This document shows positions 1,782-9,503 of a stretch of DNA of 9,503 nucleotides, piece after piece. Each line of letters begins with the position of its first letter. Positions within the stretch are counted from its first letter, which is position 1. Origin of the DNA: Candidatus Hydrogenedentes bacterium CG07_land_8_20_14_0_80_42_17 (GTDB lineage: Bacteria; UBA8481). A model generated the notes under the pieces. The model did not search any database and had not been told where the DNA came from. It saw nothing but the letters and a program-made list of their open reading frames with translations. A program made the translations under genes and the position numbers. The stretch spans positions 1 through 9,503 of the forward strand of contig PEWQ01000123.1 of assembly GCA_002780065.1 (NCBI GenBank), written 5' to 3'.

Positions 1782-1985
1782 GTGATAGACATTCGTGAAC
1801 TGAAAACTGAAGAGTCAGGACAGGGCATGGTGGAGTACGGTCTGATTATCGGCCTTATCGCCATCATCGTCATCGCAGTCTTCGTAGCTCTAGGTGGCCC
1901 GTTGAAGAATATGTTCTCCAATGCAGTAGGAACAGAAACAATGGGACAAAACCAGGCTGCTCTGTCAGCTGGTATTTACGGTTGA
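1782..1985 (+). CDS. Flp/Fap-type (type IVb) pilin subunit
   Basis: A 67-residue prepilin of the Flp family, the major subunit of Tad pili used for attachment and surface colonisation. The short leader (1-13) ends in ESG, followed by QGMVEYGL. Prepilin peptidase cleavage is expected after G13, placing the conserved Glu at mature +5 (E18) and Tyr at +6 (Y19), as in Flp pilins. Residues 20-38 form one hydrophobic helix rich in Ile, Val and Leu, ending in GGPLKNMFS, and a hydrophilic tail of about 20 residues follows, rich in Ala, Gln, Gly and Thr. Its core uses mainly ATC for Ile (five of the six codons from I22 to I31), unlike the AT-rich genes upstream and suggestive of high expression. It has its own promoter, a near-ideal ribosome site and a terminator, so it looks monocistronic. 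No tad ATPase, prepilin peptidase or secretin is in the window, so assembly genes must be elsewhere. Confidence 0.93.
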   Translation: MIDIRELKTEESGQGMVEYGLIIGLIAIIVIAVFVALGGPLKNMFSNAVGTETMGQNQAALSAGIYG

Positions 1986-2131: not shown

Positions 2132-3088
2132 TCAGTATTTCGGGCCAAACTTATAGGTCAAAGCCAATCTGTGAGAATTTCCAAAATTGCCATAAGGAAC
2201 ATAAGCATAATCAACAGAAATATCCGAAATTTTGACTCCAAGACCGGCTGTCAGTCCGTTATCAGCATCGATTCTGCCGTCATAACCAACTCTAAGAGCA
2301 AGAATCTCCATTAGTCGTAGCTCGCCGCCAACAAGAGCGCATACATTCTGGTCTCTGACCTTTTCAGCCTCTGCAGAAACAGTAAGACGATTATTGAATA
2401 AATCAACCGCTATACCTCCGCGTACAAGAGCCGGAAGCTGTTCATCAGTTTTATCAAAAGTCATCTTAGTTCCCAGATTCTGTCCAACTACTCCAAAACG
2501 CACCGGCCAATCTGACGGCTGAAGTTGCAGACCTAAATCCACTGCAAAAGCTGTTGCAGACGTGTTGTCGATCTCAGAATTCAAGATCTTAGCTGTAATG
2601 CCAGCTGAAAGGCTTTGAGTAACCATTCTGCCGTAAGAACCACTCATAAGAATATCTTGGCCGCTAAAAGTTGTAGAAGAAACATTATCGTTAATAATAT
2701 CCGTCAGACCTACTCGGCAAGATTTTCCATAATCTAGATAGTTCAAAGCAATACCCCAAGAAGACTGACTGTTGATAGGATGCACTAGCCCCAACTGACC
2801 CTGACTGATATCAAGAACTAAATTCTGATACATAGCTTCAACTTCGCCGCGATGAGTCAATCCCAAAGCTGCAGGGTTGTAATGCATTGCAGAAACGCCC
2901 AATGAATTAGCAGTTCCAGCATCACCCATAGCAGGAATCCGCGCTCCCACACCTAATCTCAAAAGAGCTCCAGACGTAGTGCCGGCATCATTATCTGCAT
3001 AAGCAAAACCAACGCAAGCCGCAACCAACATTACCACACACAAACTTCTAATCATCGCACTTGCCTCTCTAATTCTTTTCGTTTTCAT
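2132..3088 (-). CDS. PorV/PorQ-family outer-membrane protein
   Basis: This 318-residue protein resembles the PorV/PorQ (UPF0164-like) family of FadL-type outer-membrane barrels. In Bacteroidota, PorV shuttles type IX secretion cargo to the cell surface. The N-terminus has basic residues, a hydrophobic segment (about 13-28) and a likely signal peptidase I site after AYA31. The start of the mature part is family-typical: GALLRLGVGARIPAMGDAGTAN followed by AMHYNPAALG (about 40-77). The rest alternates short polar/hydrophobic segments ending with Gly, as expected of beta-strands, through to a C-terminal LALTYKFGPKY. The ATG at 3088 overlaps the stop of the upstream giant gene (ATGA), with AAGGTGG ten bases before it; an internal ATG at 3055 (M12) preceded by GAGAGG is an alternative and would give a neater signal peptide. 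VAAC (22-25) also fits a lipobox, though a barrel makes that less likely. Family call firm; secretion role inferred from the neighbour. Confidence 0.85.
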   Translation of the reverse strand: MKTKRIREASAMIRSLCVVMLVAACVGFAYADNDAGTTSGALLRLGVGARIPAMGDAGTANSLGVSAMHYNPAALGLTHRGEVEAMYQNLVLDISQGQLGLVHPINSQSSWGIALNYLDYGKSCRVGLTDIINDNVSSTTFSGQDILMSGSYGRMVTQSLSAGITAKILNSEIDNTSATAFAVDLGLQLQPSDWPVRFGVVGQNLGTKMTFDKTDEQLPALVRGGIAVDLFNNRLTVSAEAEKVRDQNVCALVGGELRLMEILALRVGYDGRIDADNGLTAGLGVKISDISVDYAYVPYGNFGNSHRLALTYKFGPKY

Positions 3089-6000
3089 CGTATCACCGCC
3101 ACCTTTCCGGTTACTCTTTGACCAGATGCCGGGTCAGTGACAATATACAAGTAGTAACCGCTGGCAACCTCTCGGTTATCGTCGTTCTTCACACTCCAGC
3201 TCGCTGTAGCACCGTTTGCACCATTTGTAAACTCAGTCACCTTTTCTCCAAGAATCGTGTAGATCTCAATCTTGGAATTCACCGGCAGGTTCTTGAATAT
3301 GATGCCAGTAGTAGCATCACCTGAAATCCACGGCTTACCTGTTTGGTCATTGCCGTCGTTCGGTCTATACGGATTCGGTCCGACAATCAATCTGTTCAAT
3401 CCGGCATTCGCGTCACCAGTCGCATTAGTAACAAATATCGGCGAGAAGTGAGTTGTCCTACCCGACAGAGTTCTTCTGCCCTTGTTCCACGCTATATCCT
3501 GAAGTTCTTCGAGCAGTCCCGCGGCAGTTACTGTGTATATCTTAGCCTTCGACATATCGACACCTGTTGAATCGTCAATGCCATCGCCATTTGCATCAAT
3601 GTAATTAACCGTAATCGTTGCTCCTTGACCTCCCAGGTTTGTCTGCCCCGAGATCAATGAAATCTCAGCCCAATATTCAGGGATAAGTGTTGCGGCGCGC
3701 TTGCATGCATTCTGCAAAGTATCGCTCTGCGAACCATGCTGAGCTCTTACTACAGCGCGATCAGTATCATTCGATATTGATCCCTGATGCAGAGTGACTA
3801 CAACGTCAAATGCACCGGTAGGCGTCCTTATGATGATCAAATCCGAAGTGCTCTTTGTCGAAACTACTGCTTCAACATAAGTTGAATCGTTCGCAGTCGA
3901 AGTTCCTGCAATCATCACATACTGCGCCGTTGCAGTGTCATTCGTTGTTGTTGCAGATAGTGATACTGCGTAAGTATCAAGTCCCTGTGCCGTTTGAGCT
4001 ACTGCTCTAAATTCGAGCGTAGTATCGTTAACCAATATAGAAGTATCGTAGTTGATCGAATAATAAACATTTCCGACGTTGTCATAGCTGGAATCAGTCG
4101 CGGTTCCAATCGTTGACCAGTTTCCGCCAGTTATCGGTCTTACATAAAATACTACTCCTGTGACATCTGAAGATGACCCTGAAATTAATTCCGATATAAG
4201 CGAAACTTTTCCTGCTCCAATTGTCGTGTCATAGTAGATATGATCGCCGGCGGACGGTTGCAATAACGTCACAGTCGCCAAAGGCGCCGGTGAAGTCGCG
4301 GACCTGAATACAGCCGAAACAACCATCGTTGCATTATCCTCATTTCCTGCCTGATCCTGAGCCTTGACCGAGAATCTATATTCATGATCCGCAATCAAGT
4401 TACTGAGTGAATAACTATAGCTCGTTTGACCTGATACGTGCGGTACTGCACTCAAAAGAGTATCCGGATATGTTCCTACTCCTGAATCCCAATACAAATT
4501 GTATTGACCGTTGGTCATCTGAGTATCACCGCTCGGTGAAGGTCCAAATGTAATCTCCAAGCTTCCCGCATTTACAGTGACTGCAAAGTTTATCGGCGGA
4601 AGCGGCGGATTTGTATCCGGGGTAATAATTGTGTAAGAGTCATAAAGTACCGCAGAAACATTTGGTTCGGAGAACGGACCATCTGCTCCTCCAACTGGCA
4701 CTCGGCAACGGACCGATGGATAAGAAGTATCAGCCAATCGAATTACGATGAGATACTGTGATGTTTCTCGAGTCGACGATGAGTAAGTAGTCTCTTGTCC
4801 TATAGTATCCGTTGGAGTTTGGGTCGGAAGGCCGGCAAGATCAATTGTCCAAGTCTCACCGCTCACATTTGTAAACGAACCAACAATATAATCCGCAGGA
4901 GTTGTATCAAATTTCTGATTCTCATTCAAATCTCTAACGAGATATACGTTCAAGAACTTTGTTGTATCTGACGATCCGTAAAGATTGACAGTCAAAGCAT
5001 TAATTGTATCCGCTTCAACTGTATCGGAAACCTGTGCTCTAAACCACATCACTTCATGAGTATCAAGCGCCTGTATTGCACTCGGGAAACCTGCATCTCG
5101 AGGCTCAGATATAATTCTCATATTACCGCGTTGGTAGGTCAAGGTTGCTCCTGATGTAGTATCAGATGAAGCACCTGTGTCTGCAAACAATGTCTTCAAT
5201 CCACGTGTCGGAATATAAGCCTGTACTGTACCATTCTGATTCACAAACTCATTCGTCAAAATTACTACCGAGAATGTATCAGAGGTCAAATCAATAGCCT
5301 TGAAGCCATAATTCATATTAGCTAACCATGTGTCGCCCGAAGCTGTCGTATCAATCTTTGTCAATACTGCAGTCTCAAGTCCCGGTCCAATAACAAGCGT
5401 GCAGCTCGTCACCGAGTCCTTCGAGGTTCCGCGAATATTGATCTGGAAGACCTGTAATGTATCTCCAATCAATGTCGATGACTCGCCCTGAATCGTGCCT
5501 GAAAGAATTGTGGTCGGATTTTGGCCTTGAGTTAGAACGGGGTGAATTGTTTGAGAAGCAATAGGAGTCATCTCTGCCTGAACACCAGGTCTGCCGAATG
5601 TTACTACTCTGCCTGAAGAAATTACTGATGCAGGACCTGATTGCCGGAATTGAGAAGTCACCGAATCCGGCATAATGAGCGCAGTTAGAGTTGCATTCTG
5701 AGCTGTTGTTTCACGAACATTAACATAAACCTTGTAATTTGCAGAATCAGCAATTTGCTTTGTGACAGCAATAAACCATGAATCTGCACCATCTCGAGCC
5801 ATTGCAAAAGTCTCACCATTAATGTCAAGCGCTACTGACTCAACATCTGTATAAGCCATGGAAACAAAATTCAAAGAAACTCCAAAGCTCGTTACAGTAT
5901 CATAGGTAAGCGTTGACGATAAAGTTGTGTCTGCAAGAATCTGACCGCTTGCGATAAGAACCGGCTGGCCTGTAATTCTCGAATCCGGATGCACAGAAAC

Positions 6001-9000
6001 ATTTATTAATGCATCTGGAGTAATAGCCATTCTCGGCTTATTGAAAGTCACAATTCGTGAAGCCGTGAATAACGATGTATCTGTCTGCAATCGAGTGCTG
6101 ACAGAATCTTGTGGAATAGTTGCCTGTAAAGTAGCTCCAAGCGCTACAGTCTCGAAGACTTGAACGTAAAGCGTGCAGGTAATCGTCGAATTGTAAGCAA
6201 TAGTGGAATCCAAAGAGAGAGACCAATTATCAGAACCATTTCGAATCAGAGAAAGCGTATCTTCACTACCTGCGCTATTCAAAATGACATAAGCAGATTG
6301 AACGCTGTCTCCACCTGAAACTGCAGTGCCAACAAACTGGAATCCGACTCTCTGCAGAGTATCAGAAACACCTGAAGCTGAAGTCTGGCCGTCAAATGTG
6401 CCAATGTATGCTATAAACGGATTCTGATTCAATCTAGAATCAGGATGTATCGTAACTGCGGTCAATGCGCTGTCAGTAATAACCAGAGTATCAACATAGT
6501 TGAAGCGAACGATACGACCCGAAGTCACACCTGTGACCGTTCCTACAGAATAAGAAGCGACAGCAGTCTCAATCTGAACAGAAAGCGTCTCACCAATTAA
6601 CTTAGTCGGCTCTGTAGCAGTCAAAACTCGAATCCTGAATGATTGTCCCGAATCAATTGTAATCGGAGCCGCTAGCTTGAATACTGGATTCAGTCCCGGA
6701 GTATCAACAGAAAGCGTCTGTTCAGAGGCTGGAGTCATCGAACCTGCTAAGAACTCAACTTTCAAAACAATCGAATCATCGACAATATTGTTGCTGATAA
6801 CTTTAACCTGGAATGTAGTCAAAGAATCACTTGGTGATTGCGATGAAGTAATCTTTCCGTCAAAAACCAAAGTAGAATCGTTTTGATCTCTGAACGGAGA
6901 AACAATTGTATCCGTCAAAGCTGTTGCAGTGATAACAAATGGCGCCTTCGTAAATGTGACAATTCTCGATCCCAATAATACTTCGCTTGGAGAAGAATCA
7001 CCCATGAAGAAAGTGTGAACTGAATCAGCATGCATAAATGCTCTGACTCTGGAATTCGTACCGAGAGCGACAGTTTCCGCTACCCAACCTCGAACAATAA
7101 ACGTCTCGGAATTATTGTCGCTACTCATCTTTTGGTTAATTCCATTAATGGAATAAGGCTTTACGCGACTGCCAAATTCATCAAAGTAGCTGGCTCCCGC
7201 TGTCAAAACGTAAGAGTCCTCATTTGGCCCAAAGTAAACAGCAGCAGAAGTAATTGAATCCGCAACAGTCACGTCAGACGTTGCCGCGCTGAAAAATGCA
7301 ACAGAGAAATAAGTGATGCTATCAGTTGCCGGAGCATAATACTGCTGACCGGCCGCACTACCAATCTGTTGATATCCGCTAATGCCATTTACAGTGCCTG
7401 CGTAAATATCGAACGGAATATCTCCTGCCATTGAATCGGGATTAACATTAGTATCCGTCAAAGAGCCGTCCATAACTAGATACGTTGTATCTGCATAGTA
7501 GAAGCTCACAGTTCGTGAAGAATGAGTTTCACCGGCCAGTCCTGAAGTGTAATAAGTATTCACTGAATCTTTCGGAATTCTAGCAAAGAACGAATCACTC
7601 ACTAAAATTCTTGAATCGGCAAAGTAGGACTTCAATGTCACCCAAATTTCGAATCCTTGAGAATCACCAATCAATGTCTTTGAATCGGCATCTGCTAGTT
7701 TCCAAAGTGTATCCGCGCCGTCCTGAGTCAAATACTTTGTATCGCCGGCCGTAACAATAAGGCTTGGAGTCAAATACAATACTACTGTCTCGATGGAGTT
7801 GTTGTTTGCGATATCAGTAGTCACAGTATCGAACGAAATACCGAATGAGGTCAAAGAGTCGTAGTCCAGCATCGGAGTCGACCCTCTATCGATGTAGATA
7901 TGTCCGGTGCAAACCTTAATAGGATTGGACAATAACGCATTCCACGGTGGAATTGTTGTGTCTCCTAGATAATCCATTATAACGATAACAGAATCTACTC
8001 CCATCATAAATGTAGCGCTAGAGTCATTAGCAAGGACTCCAGGACCAGGTGTCGAATAAACCGAAGTGCAACCGCGTTCAACATACGAGCAATAGAGCAA
8101 CGTTCCTAGAGTCACAGTATCCGCAACATTAATTCTAACTCCATAAGTATCGTTGGAAGAAACTTGTATAGAAAGTCCTGTAGCCTGCCATCTGGTATCC
8201 CATCCTGCAACTTTGTTCATAGCTGTCCATGCGCCGTTTGTCTTTATTGAGAACTGAGCATTGTAAACACTGTCTCCGGCTGAGCCTCCGAATTCAACGG
8301 TGAGTTCCGTAATAATATCCGTGTCGCCGTAGATAAGAGTTGTGTCGAGTAAGACTTTGCCCTTAAGAACCGTTACAGGATTTACTATAGCCCATTGAGG
8401 CAGAATCGTATCCATACCATTGTTAATAATTTGAGATGGCAACTGCAAAATTGGTTTCGTCTCGGTAAGAATTCTTCCAGACGTAGCAACACTCTTTGGT
8501 CCTCGAGCTCGATAAGTAGTTATTATCGAATCAACCATTATTCGAGCAGTGATTGTGCTTCCAAGAAGAATGTTGTCGTGTGCACGAACCCAAATTTCAA
8601 TCGAAGCAGTATCAGAAATAGGTTTATTCACTGTTGCAAACCATGAGTCAACTGCTCCCTCTTTAGTCATCGTTCTTGTATCGCCATTAATTACGACCGA
8701 AACGGATTCCAGATTTGAAGCTATTCCGCCTGTCAAAATCAACGATACTCCAACTGTATCTATTACATCGTTAACAATTCCGGTAAAGGTATCTGCCATC
8801 AGTCTGCCGCTGAATACTTTCGTCCCGTGTATGCCTCCGGCAATACTAGAATCAGGATGGAGTTGAGTATCAGTTAAGACATCAACTTCAAGTATCACAT
8901 CTTGCCGATCATACGTCACAGTTCTCGATGAAGAAATAAATACGGCAGGTCCGAGATCGCGATAACGCAATGCTACAGAATCCGGCATAATCAAAGCGCT

Positions 9001-9503
9001 GAGAGTAGAGCCTGAATTTGTTGTCTCTCTCGCTCTGACATATACTCGATAATAAATCGTATCTGTCACGGATTTATTCAATACAACTTCCCACGAATCC
9101 GCTGTCGAAATCTTCGCCATCGGCTGAGTATCTTCATTGATCACCAATGCTACAGACTCAATATTAGCTGATGTCATTCCTGTCATGTTTAGAGATATTC
9201 CGAATGTCTCGACTACATCGCCTGAGACTCCGGAAATCGTGTCCTGAGCAATTATACCTTGCGCAACAAGAACACCGATAATTCCTCCGGTAACATTCGA
9301 ATCCGGATGAGCTGACACGTTTCCAAGGCTGTCCGCTACAAATTCTGGTGACGGAGTATAATAAGTGACGGTTCTTGAAGATGTCAGGAGAGAATTCGGG
9401 CCGCTGTCACGCAGATCTGTCCAGACAGAATCCGTTGAAATATTCGCAACGAGCGTTCCATTGTCCGGTGTATTCTTTGTCGAACGAGCGTAAACACGAA
9501 TAT
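3085..9503 (-). CDS. Giant secreted tandem-repeat protein with C-terminal sorting-type domain; N-terminus beyond right edge
   Basis: At least 2138 codons are visible. The frame has no stop up to the right edge: 61 more codons precede the GTG at 9318, which is an ordinary Val inside a repeat, so the true start and signal peptide are outside. In residue numbers counted from that GTG, the order is: nine complete repeats of about 150 residues plus a partial one (to 1395); a related but degenerate module (1396-1569) with a DxNxNxxxD loop at 1463-1471; an FN3 domain (1570-1672); an Ig-like segment (about 1681-1790); a ZU5-like segment (about 1797-1965) with DANGDGIDD at 1908-1916, ending in TTHFSPIFV; and a sorting/FlgD-Ig-like domain (1974-2077). 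It is rich in Thr, Ser, Asp and Val, with only seven Cys and no enzyme motif, which suits an extracellular stalk or adhesin. Its stop overlaps the PorV/PorQ-family gene by ATGA. Adhesion is inference; the ligand is unknown. Confidence 0.88.
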   Translation of the reverse strand, partial: IRVYARSTKNTPDNGTLVANISTDSVWTDLRDSGPNSLLTSSRTVTYYTPSPEFVADSLGNVSAHPDSNVTGGIIGVLVAQGIIAQDTISGVSGDVVETFGISLNMTGMTSANIESVALVINEDTQPMAKISTADSWEVVLNKSVTDTIYYRVYVRARETTNSGSTLSALIMPDSVALRYRDLGPAVFISSSRTVTYDRQDVILEVDVLTDTQLHPDSSIAGGIHGTKVFSGRLMADTFTGIVNDVIDTVGVSLILTGGIASNLESVSVVINGDTRTMTKEGAVDSWFATVNKPISDTASIEIWVRAHDNILLGSTITARIMVDSIITTYRARGPKSVATSGRILTETKPILQLPSQIINNGMDTILPQWAIVNPVTVLKGKVLLDTTLIYGDTDIITELTVEFGGSAGDSVYNAQFSIKTNGAWTAMNKVAGWDTRWQATGLSIQVSSNDTYGVRINVADTVTLGTLLYCSYVERGCTSVYSTPGPGVLANDSSATFMMGVDSVIVIMDYLGDTTIPPWNALLSNPIKVCTGHIYIDRGSTPMLDYDSLTSFGISFDTVTTDIANNNSIETVVLYLTPSLIVTAGDTKYLTQDGADTLWKLADADSKTLIGDSQGFEIWVTLKSYFADSRILVSDSFFARIPKDSVNTYYTSGLAGETHSSRTVSFYYADTTYLVMDGSLTDTNVNPDSMAGDIPFDIYAGTVNGISGYQQIGSAAGQQYYAPATDSITYFSVAFFSAATSDVTVADSITSAAVYFGPNEDSYVLTAGASYFDEFGSRVKPYSINGINQKMSSDNNSETFIVRGWVAETVALGTNSRVRAFMHADSVHTFFMGDSSPSEVLLGSRIVTFTKAPFVITATALTDTIVSPFRDQNDSTLVFDGKITSSQSPSDSLTTFQVKVISNNIVDDSIVLKVEFLAGSMTPASEQTLSVDTPGLNPVFKLAAPITIDSGQSFRIRVLTATEPTKLIGETLSVQIETAVASYSVGTVTGVTSGRIVRFNYVDTLVITDSALTAVTIHPDSRLNQNPFIAYIGTFDGQTSASGVSDTLQRVGFQFVGTAVSGGDSVQSAYVILNSAGSEDTLSLIRNGSDNWSLSLDSTIAYNSTITCTLYVQVFETVALGATLQATIPQDSVSTRLQTDTSLFTASRIVTFNKPRMAITPDALINVSVHPDSRITGQPVLIASGQILADTTLSSTLTYDTVTSFGVSLNFVSMAYTDVESVALDINGETFAMARDGADSWFIAVTKQIADSANYKVYVNVRETTAQNATLTALIMPDSVTSQFRQSGPASVISSGRVVTFGRPGVQAEMTPIASQTIHPVLTQGQNPTTILSGTIQGESSTLIGDTLQVFQINIRGTSKDSVTSCTLVIGPGLETAVLTKIDTTASGDTWLANMNYGFKAIDLTSDTFSVVILTNEFVNQNGTVQAYIPTRGLKTLFADTGASSDTTSGATLTYQRGNMRIISEPRDAGFPSAIQALDTHEVMWFRAQVSDTVEADTINALTVNLYGSSDTTKFLNVYLVRDLNENQKFDTTPADYIVGSFTNVSGETWTIDLAGLPTQTPTDTIGQETTYSSSTRETSQYLIVIRLADTSYPSVRCRVPVGGADGPFSEPNVSAVLYDSYTIITPDTNPPLPPINFAVTVNAGSLEITFGPSPSGDTQMTNGQYNLYWDSGVGTYPDTLLSAVPHVSGQTSYSYSLSNLIADHEYRFSVKAQDQAGNEDNATMVVSAVFRSATSPAPLATVTLLQPSAGDHIYYDTTIGAGKVSLISELISGSSSDVTGVVFYVRPITGGNWSTIGTATDSSYDNVGNVYYSINYDTSILVNDTTLEFRAVAQTAQGLDTYAVSLSATTTNDTATAQYVMIAGTSTANDSTYVEAVVSTKSTSDLIIIRTPTGAFDVVVTLHQGSISNDTDRAVVRAQHGSQSDTLQNACKRAATLIPEYWAEISLISGQTNLGGQGATITVNYIDANGDGIDDSTGVDMSKAKIYTVTAAGLLEELQDIAWNKGRRTLSGRTTHFSPIFVTNATGDANAGLNRLIVGPNPYRPNDGNDQTGKPWISGDATTGIIFKNLPVNSKIEIYTILGEKVTEFTNGANGATASWSVKNDDNREVASGYYLYIVTDPASGQRVTGKVAVIR
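3088..3399 (-). other. C-terminal T9SS type A-like sorting / FlgD-Ig-like domain
   Basis: The last 104 residues (1974-2077) of the giant protein carry RLIVGPNPYRPN, then IIFKNLPVNSKIEIYTILGEKV, then WSVKNDDNREVASGYYLYIV and finally GQRVTGKVAVIR at the very C-terminus. These match the B, D and E motif order of type A CTD signals in type IX secretion, and also the FlgD Ig-like fold, which is related in appearance. Position at the extreme C-terminus and the overlapping PorV/PorQ-family gene favour an export or surface-anchoring signal. Whether a complete T9SS exists cannot be seen here. Confidence 0.7.
4303..4611 (-). other. Fibronectin type III domain within the giant protein
   Basis: Residues 1570-1672 of the giant protein start with NPPLPPINFAVTVNAG, continue with LEITFGPSPSGD and GQYNLYW, and close with LIADHEYRFSVKAQDQAGNED. 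That is the usual FN3 order: proline-rich entry, B-strand, C-strand Tyr-x-x-Tyr-Trp and the F-strand Tyr-x-F-x-V-x-A-x-D. FN3 domains in bacterial exoproteins are generally spacers or protein-binding modules. Confidence 0.8.
5134..9503 (-). repeat. Tandem protein-level repeat array, period about 150 residues (nine complete copies plus one partial)
   Basis: Boundaries were set at the recurring motif S-x-R-(I/V/T)-V-T-(F/Y). Copies in reading order are partial 9361-9503, then 8911-9360 (150 aa), 8461-8910 (150), 8008-8460 (151), 7501-8007 (169), 6952-7500 (183), 6502-6951 (150), 6043-6501 (153), 5596-6042 (149) and 5134-5595 (154). Each copy tends to carry an (H/N)PDS motif shortly after the boundary. 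Then follow a strand-like T-x-F-G-(V/I)-S-L segment, ESV-x-L-x-I-NG, DGADSW, a (R)ET-x-x-x-G-x-TL-x-A-x-I segment and (M/I)P-x-DSV before SGP and the boundary motif. The third copy (8008-8460) has lost the boundary arginine (NDSSATF) and the HPDS element. Alternating hydrophobic residues suggest beta-sandwich modules. DNA identity between copies is low, so this is an old expansion. I do not recognise the family. Confidence 0.85.

Follow-up and report, generated by a model that had tools for sequence, protein, structure and literature searches.

The window considered here, the whole analysed stretch of 9503 bases, is an entire contig within a 2.39-Mb assembly. Its minus strand carries the open reading frame of a giant protein, of which 2138 residues are encoded; the contig stops before the N terminus is reached, which leaves the frame open on that side. 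Thr, Ser and Asp are abundant in the protein, and Cys is almost absent. Nine complete copies of a repeat, R1 to R9, lie end to end in residues 48-1456 (window 5134-9360, minus strand), and a further copy, R0, is cut by the contig end. On the C-terminal side there follow a tenth and more distant unit, an FN3 domain and a domain resembling the sorting domains of the type IX secretion system (T9SS). The next gene encodes an outer-membrane protein of the PorV/PorQ family, and its ATG overlaps the TGA of the giant gene as ATGA. Beyond the PorV-family gene, ispH and a gene for a HAD-type hydrolase lie on the plus strand. The features are as follows.

9361-9501, minus strand: R0, partial (C-terminal third); the nine-copy HMM matches residues 2-47, E 1e-9
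8911-9360, minus strand: R1, 150 aa; leave-one-out HMM E 2.9e-31
8461-8910, minus strand: R2, 150 aa; leave-one-out HMM E 5.7e-32
8002-8460, minus strand: R3, 153 aa; leave-one-out HMM E 1.3e-10
7501-8001, minus strand: R4, 167 aa; leave-one-out HMM E 1.1e-19; positional orthologue U10 (reciprocal best hit)
6952-7500, minus strand: R5, 183 aa; leave-one-out HMM E 2.7e-9; orthologue U11
6502-6951, minus strand: R6, 150 aa; leave-one-out HMM E 2.2e-7; orthologue U12
6043-6501, minus strand: R7, 153 aa; leave-one-out HMM E 4.4e-24; orthologue U13
5596-6042, minus strand: R8, 149 aa; leave-one-out HMM E 2.6e-42; copy used for structure prediction
5134-5595, minus strand: R9, 154 aa; leave-one-out HMM E 6.4e-22
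about 4612-5133 (limits approximate), minus strand: tenth, more distant unit of the 'RDxNxNxxFD' type; the intermediate-unit profile matches 4840-5082, E 4.4e-8
4336-4599, minus strand: FN3 domain; Pfam PF00041, E 9.2e-6, residues 1635-1722
3088-3396 (match 3100-3312), minus strand: T9SS type A-like C-terminal sorting domain; TIGR04183, residues 2064-2134
3085-9501, minus strand: giant-protein open reading frame, 2138 aa, truncated on its N-terminal side by the end of the contig
2132-3088, minus strand: gene for the PorV/PorQ-family outer-membrane protein; NF033709, 178 bits against a cut-off of 90
1782-1985, plus strand: short gene encoding a Flp-type pilin; match to Flp_Fap in Pfam, E 8e-10

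The pilin gene has a strong Shine-Dalgarno sequence and, at 2030-2055, a terminator-like hairpin behind it; a hairpin at 2118-2087 belongs to the opposite operon.

The existence of a repeat with at least nine complete copies had been proposed from the sequence-only reading of this DNA, and it is borne out by a leave-one-out test in which an HMM built from eight copies was searched against the ninth, with 200 shuffles per copy as the control. All nine copies were recovered, at E-values of 2.6e-42 to 2.2e-7, far above the shuffles, the best of which reached 0.007. The regular period of 149-154 residues given in the same reading describes seven of the copies but not R4 (167) or R5 (183), and its range of 5134-9503 does hold the nine copies, yet the array continues to the tenth unit. 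The motifs that it took to be a fixed set are a consensus instead, the exact forms being found in four of the nine copies for HPDS, two for FGxSL and one each for DGADSW and SxRxVTF. Identity of the other copies to R8 is 23-49%, and the only invariant residues among the nine are Pro19, Gly33 and Asp48 (R8 numbering); Pro19 and Asp48 are invariant across all 24 copies from two genomes.

Searches of Pfam, NCBIfam, PDB sequences and Rfam returned no family for the repeat, and no single copy matched any Pfam family, PF14873 included. A match of one copy to RBD_DGKtheta (E 0.035) was dismissed as chance. Stalk repeats of the Ig-like kind, such as FN3, Big, PKD and pilin shaft domains, are also tandem beta-sandwiches in very long surface proteins; however, they have about 90 residues rather than about 150. 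The Pfam profiles of FN3, Big and PKD matched none of the copies, and in hhalign comparisons the FN3 and PKD sets scored at most 15.9, not above chance level. The profile of PF14873 likewise found no match in this genome or in genome G001. Literature searches on BNR_assoc_N and on Hydrogenedentes with a T9SS gave no results.

An AlphaFold model of R8, made with a 24-copy alignment, is one compact all-beta domain (pLDDT 92.5, pTM 0.88), so that each period folds as a single domain and an alternation of two known domains within it, against which the sequence-only reading had advised a check, is ruled out. Foldseek alone gave weak matches to this model (best E 9e-4, TM 0.40). When the top 1000 Foldseek chains were re-scored with VIA-align, the best 14 matches were all N-terminal domains of GH33 sialidases from Bacteroidetes, with Z-scores of 8.9-10.6 and an rmsd of 2.7-3.5 over 124-130 residues. 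The highest score belongs to residues 34-196 of Tannerella forsythia NanH (Z 10.6, 129 residues, 2.9 Å), and 4fj6, 4q6k, 4bbw and PG_0352 are also among the 14; the first unrelated match is a cohesin, at Z 8.4. Residues 34-196 of NanH coincide exactly with the domain described as the carbohydrate-binding module CBM93, annotated as PF14873, which binds sialoglycans (PMC9472817). The corresponding domain of Porphyromonas gingivalis PG0352 has likewise been described as a carbohydrate-binding module and was crystallised with fructose (PMC10553830). The model of R8 thus matches the beta-sandwich fold of about 150 residues that is found at the N terminus of these sialidases, and the fold of the repeat is not an unknown one. 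The repeat is unrecognised, as had been said, to the extent that no copy matches the curated Pfam profiles, but not as regards its fold.

A link in sequence comes from intermediate units, as we call the distant matches that the repeat profile also has in genomes belonging to other families. In hhalign comparisons the repeat aligns with the intermediate units at 98.5% probability (score 92.7), and the intermediate units align with members of PF14873 at 79.9% (score 37.0), while column-shuffled controls score at most 12.4; a merged profile reaches 47.7% against PF14873. One of the intermediate units, found in another genome, has a Pfam match to PF14873 that stays under the cut-off of the family (E 0.014). 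The direct comparison of repeat and PF14873 is not significant (0.4%), and the case for kinship therefore rests on the intermediates and the fold. It is this missing direct match, together with the weak Foldseek result and the fact that Z-scores of 7-8 are common for models without relatives, that would speak for a novel family with no relation to PF14873, the resemblance then reflecting the generic closeness of beta-sandwiches. We think this unlikely, since a single domain family fills the best 14 matches at higher Z-scores than these and the intermediate units tie the two sides together in sequence. A remote kinship with PF14873 is likely but not proven, and for this reason we leave the repeat outside that family. 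The two also differ in arrangement: the CBM93 domain of the sialidases is a single copy before an enzyme, whereas the repeat forms long tandem arrays without one.

A two-copy model of R7-R8 (pLDDT 86.4, pTM 0.73) predicts the orientation of neighbouring units only moderately. In this model the strand 146-153 reaches the junction, and the first strand of the second unit, 157-162, begins directly after it. The last strand of one unit would thus lead almost directly into the opening strand of its neighbour, and the array is therefore probably stiff or semi-stiff. Among the 50 matches listed for the two-copy model there is no sialidase, and the leading places are taken by integrin legs, pilins and further sandwich chains; multi-domain matches have a poor rmsd. 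This outcome neither supports nor excludes the match to the CBM93 fold.

The comparison within the phylum is with one other genome, Candidatus Hydrogenedentota bacterium J006, which encodes an orthologue of the giant protein on contig RFFU01000032.1. The orthologue has 3431 residues and 15 copies of the repeat and is followed by its own PorV gene, the product of which is 58% identical to the PorV of the window; in a search of named genomes, the other matches are distant, in Bacteroidetes (21-24%). The protein starts with a stretch that is signal-peptide-like as judged by eye, KLSLFLAAIFSLVVVAGWFQEARA, and passes almost directly into the repeats, which are followed by FN3 and the C-terminal domain, with no separate head domain recognised. 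Four copies of the window are reciprocal best hits of four copies in J006, in the same order in both proteins (R4-U10, R5-U11, R6-U12 and R7-U13), and the probability that four such pairs fall consecutively on one diagonal is 0.0004 under a simple permutation. R1, R2 and R8 represent an expansion in the lineage of the window (support 100/99), and U05-U08 an expansion in the lineage of J006. From this ordered pairing and the separate expansions, it seems that an old ordered core of copies has been lengthened independently in each lineage.

In both genomes there is a second giant protein as well, which combines FN3-like domains with more distant units; its gene, too, has a PorV gene behind it that overlaps as ATGA. 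A PorV paralogue thus lies directly behind each of the four giant T9SS-type genes found in the phylum. The overlaps are at 3085-3088 in the window and at 6351-6354, 5002-5005 and 2369-2372 in loci L027, L028 and L029, respectively. Their presence at four of four giants suggests translational coupling and PorV proteins that may each be dedicated to one substrate. The J006 genes directly downstream of PorV (969-3831 of L028, minus strand) resemble, by eye, genes for lipopolysaccharide heptose/KDO biosynthesis.

The giant protein resembles type A substrates of the T9SS in several respects, namely a putative sorting-type C-terminal domain, an FN3 domain towards the C terminus, a PorV/PorQ-family gene in the operon and an SprA homologue in the genome. 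It differs in that the match of its tail to TIGR04183 (E 6.7e-4, 19.6 bits) is under the curated cut-off of 23, and in the placement of a PorV paralogue behind every giant gene of the phylum. The tail also matches CHU_C in Pfam at E 0.054. The SprA homologues of the two genomes have E-values of 6e-28 and 3e-21, under the curated cut-off of 200 bits. A search for PorU gave matches to the tail domain only, and Peptidase_C25 had no match in either genome, nor in the controls. The surface-protein context that had been supposed for the repeat is supported by the T9SS-type C-terminal domain, the PorV neighbour and the SprA homologue.

With respect to distribution, among 386 diverse genomes the repeat profile gives strong matches in the two from this phylum only, whereas 31 of the 386 contain matches to the intermediate-unit profile at E 1e-5 or below. 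The description of the module as lineage-specific is therefore accurate for a subfamily, the HPDS subtype, while for the wider domain a lineage-specific origin is rejected because of its relatives elsewhere. An SprA match is present in 21 of the 31 carriers versus 127 of the 355 other genomes (Fisher p 0.0005, with kinship among the genomes ignored), and in 15 of 25 carriers when the six genomes that supplied the intermediates are left out (p 0.015, kinship again ignored). The association fits a possible link between the domain and type IX secretion. Ten carriers have no detectable SprA; distant relatives of the repeat in genomes G133 and G270 (loci L042 and L036) were seen by eye in proteins with a dockerin-like end and no T9SS tail. 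The domain is therefore not tied to one export route. In genome G030, matches to the intermediate domain lie inside huge open frames of 22286 aa (C2) and 10454 aa (C40).

There are several possible roles for such a protein. The one we favour, and consider reasonably probable, is that of a surface fibre secreted by the type IX route, with a shaft made of a string of CBM93-fold domains. According to this model, tandem beta-sandwiches of about 150 residues with the CBM93/BNR_assoc_N fold would form the shaft, the giant would be exported through SprA, assisted by the PorV-family protein that its own operon encodes, and the C-terminal sorting domain would keep it attached at the cell surface. The string of units, being stiff or semi-stiff, would give the protein the shape of a rod and hold its N-terminal end away from the cell, and most copies would serve as stalk rather than in the binding of a ligand. 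The earlier suggestion of a stalk module in a surface adhesin is in this respect plausible as to the stalk, but the adhesin part is unproven, as the J006 orthologue apparently lacks a head domain. If the window protein is alike, the units themselves would be the function.

An alternative is that the units have kept a cleft and bind polysaccharides belonging to a biofilm, to other cells or to the surface of the cell itself, the array acting as a multivalent fibre of high avidity. The closest structural relatives, in NanH and PG0352, are after all carbohydrate-binding modules (PMC9472817, PMC10553830), and polar clusters are found near the N terminus (HPDS) and the C terminus (SxR) of the unit, roughly where the cleft residues His-40 and Ser-169 of PG0352 lie, as judged by position along the chain alone. 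By this analogy, glycan binding is possible. The clusters are not strictly kept, however: of the 24 copies, 14 have the His of HPDS and 15 the Arg of SxR, the columns of the 24-copy alignment hold no well conserved mid-domain Arg to match Arg-95 of PG0352, and the invariant Pro and Asp look structural. Moreover, Pfam finds no glycosidase domain in the giant protein. We therefore consider a glycan-binding fibre improbable, and its most specific form, a secreted filament of 10-15 tandem CBM93-fold lectin domains, multivalent in glycan binding and with a dedicated PorV paralogue for each giant, very improbable. It is also conceivable that the giants pack side by side into a surface layer or matrix, a coat without a tip function, as might suit the J006 orthologue, apparently all repeats between signal peptide and FN3, and the Thr-, Ser- and Asp-rich, nearly Cys-free composition of the window protein. 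The strong divergence of the copies is unlike what a uniform lattice would show, and each genome has two giants of different architecture; we regard a coat as highly unlikely.

Finally, we note that the repeat is real and uncurated, and that its fold and export route are of kinds already known. The CBM93 fold, known so far mostly from sialidases and other glycan-acting proteins, is linked to a much larger group of uncurated domains within giant proteins that uncultured bacteria export, and such proteins could now be annotated. Whether the domain acts as lectin or as stalk becomes a question that is testable on a single recombinant unit. We suggest that the strict pairing of giant and PorV genes reflects PorV proteins dedicated to individual substrates.
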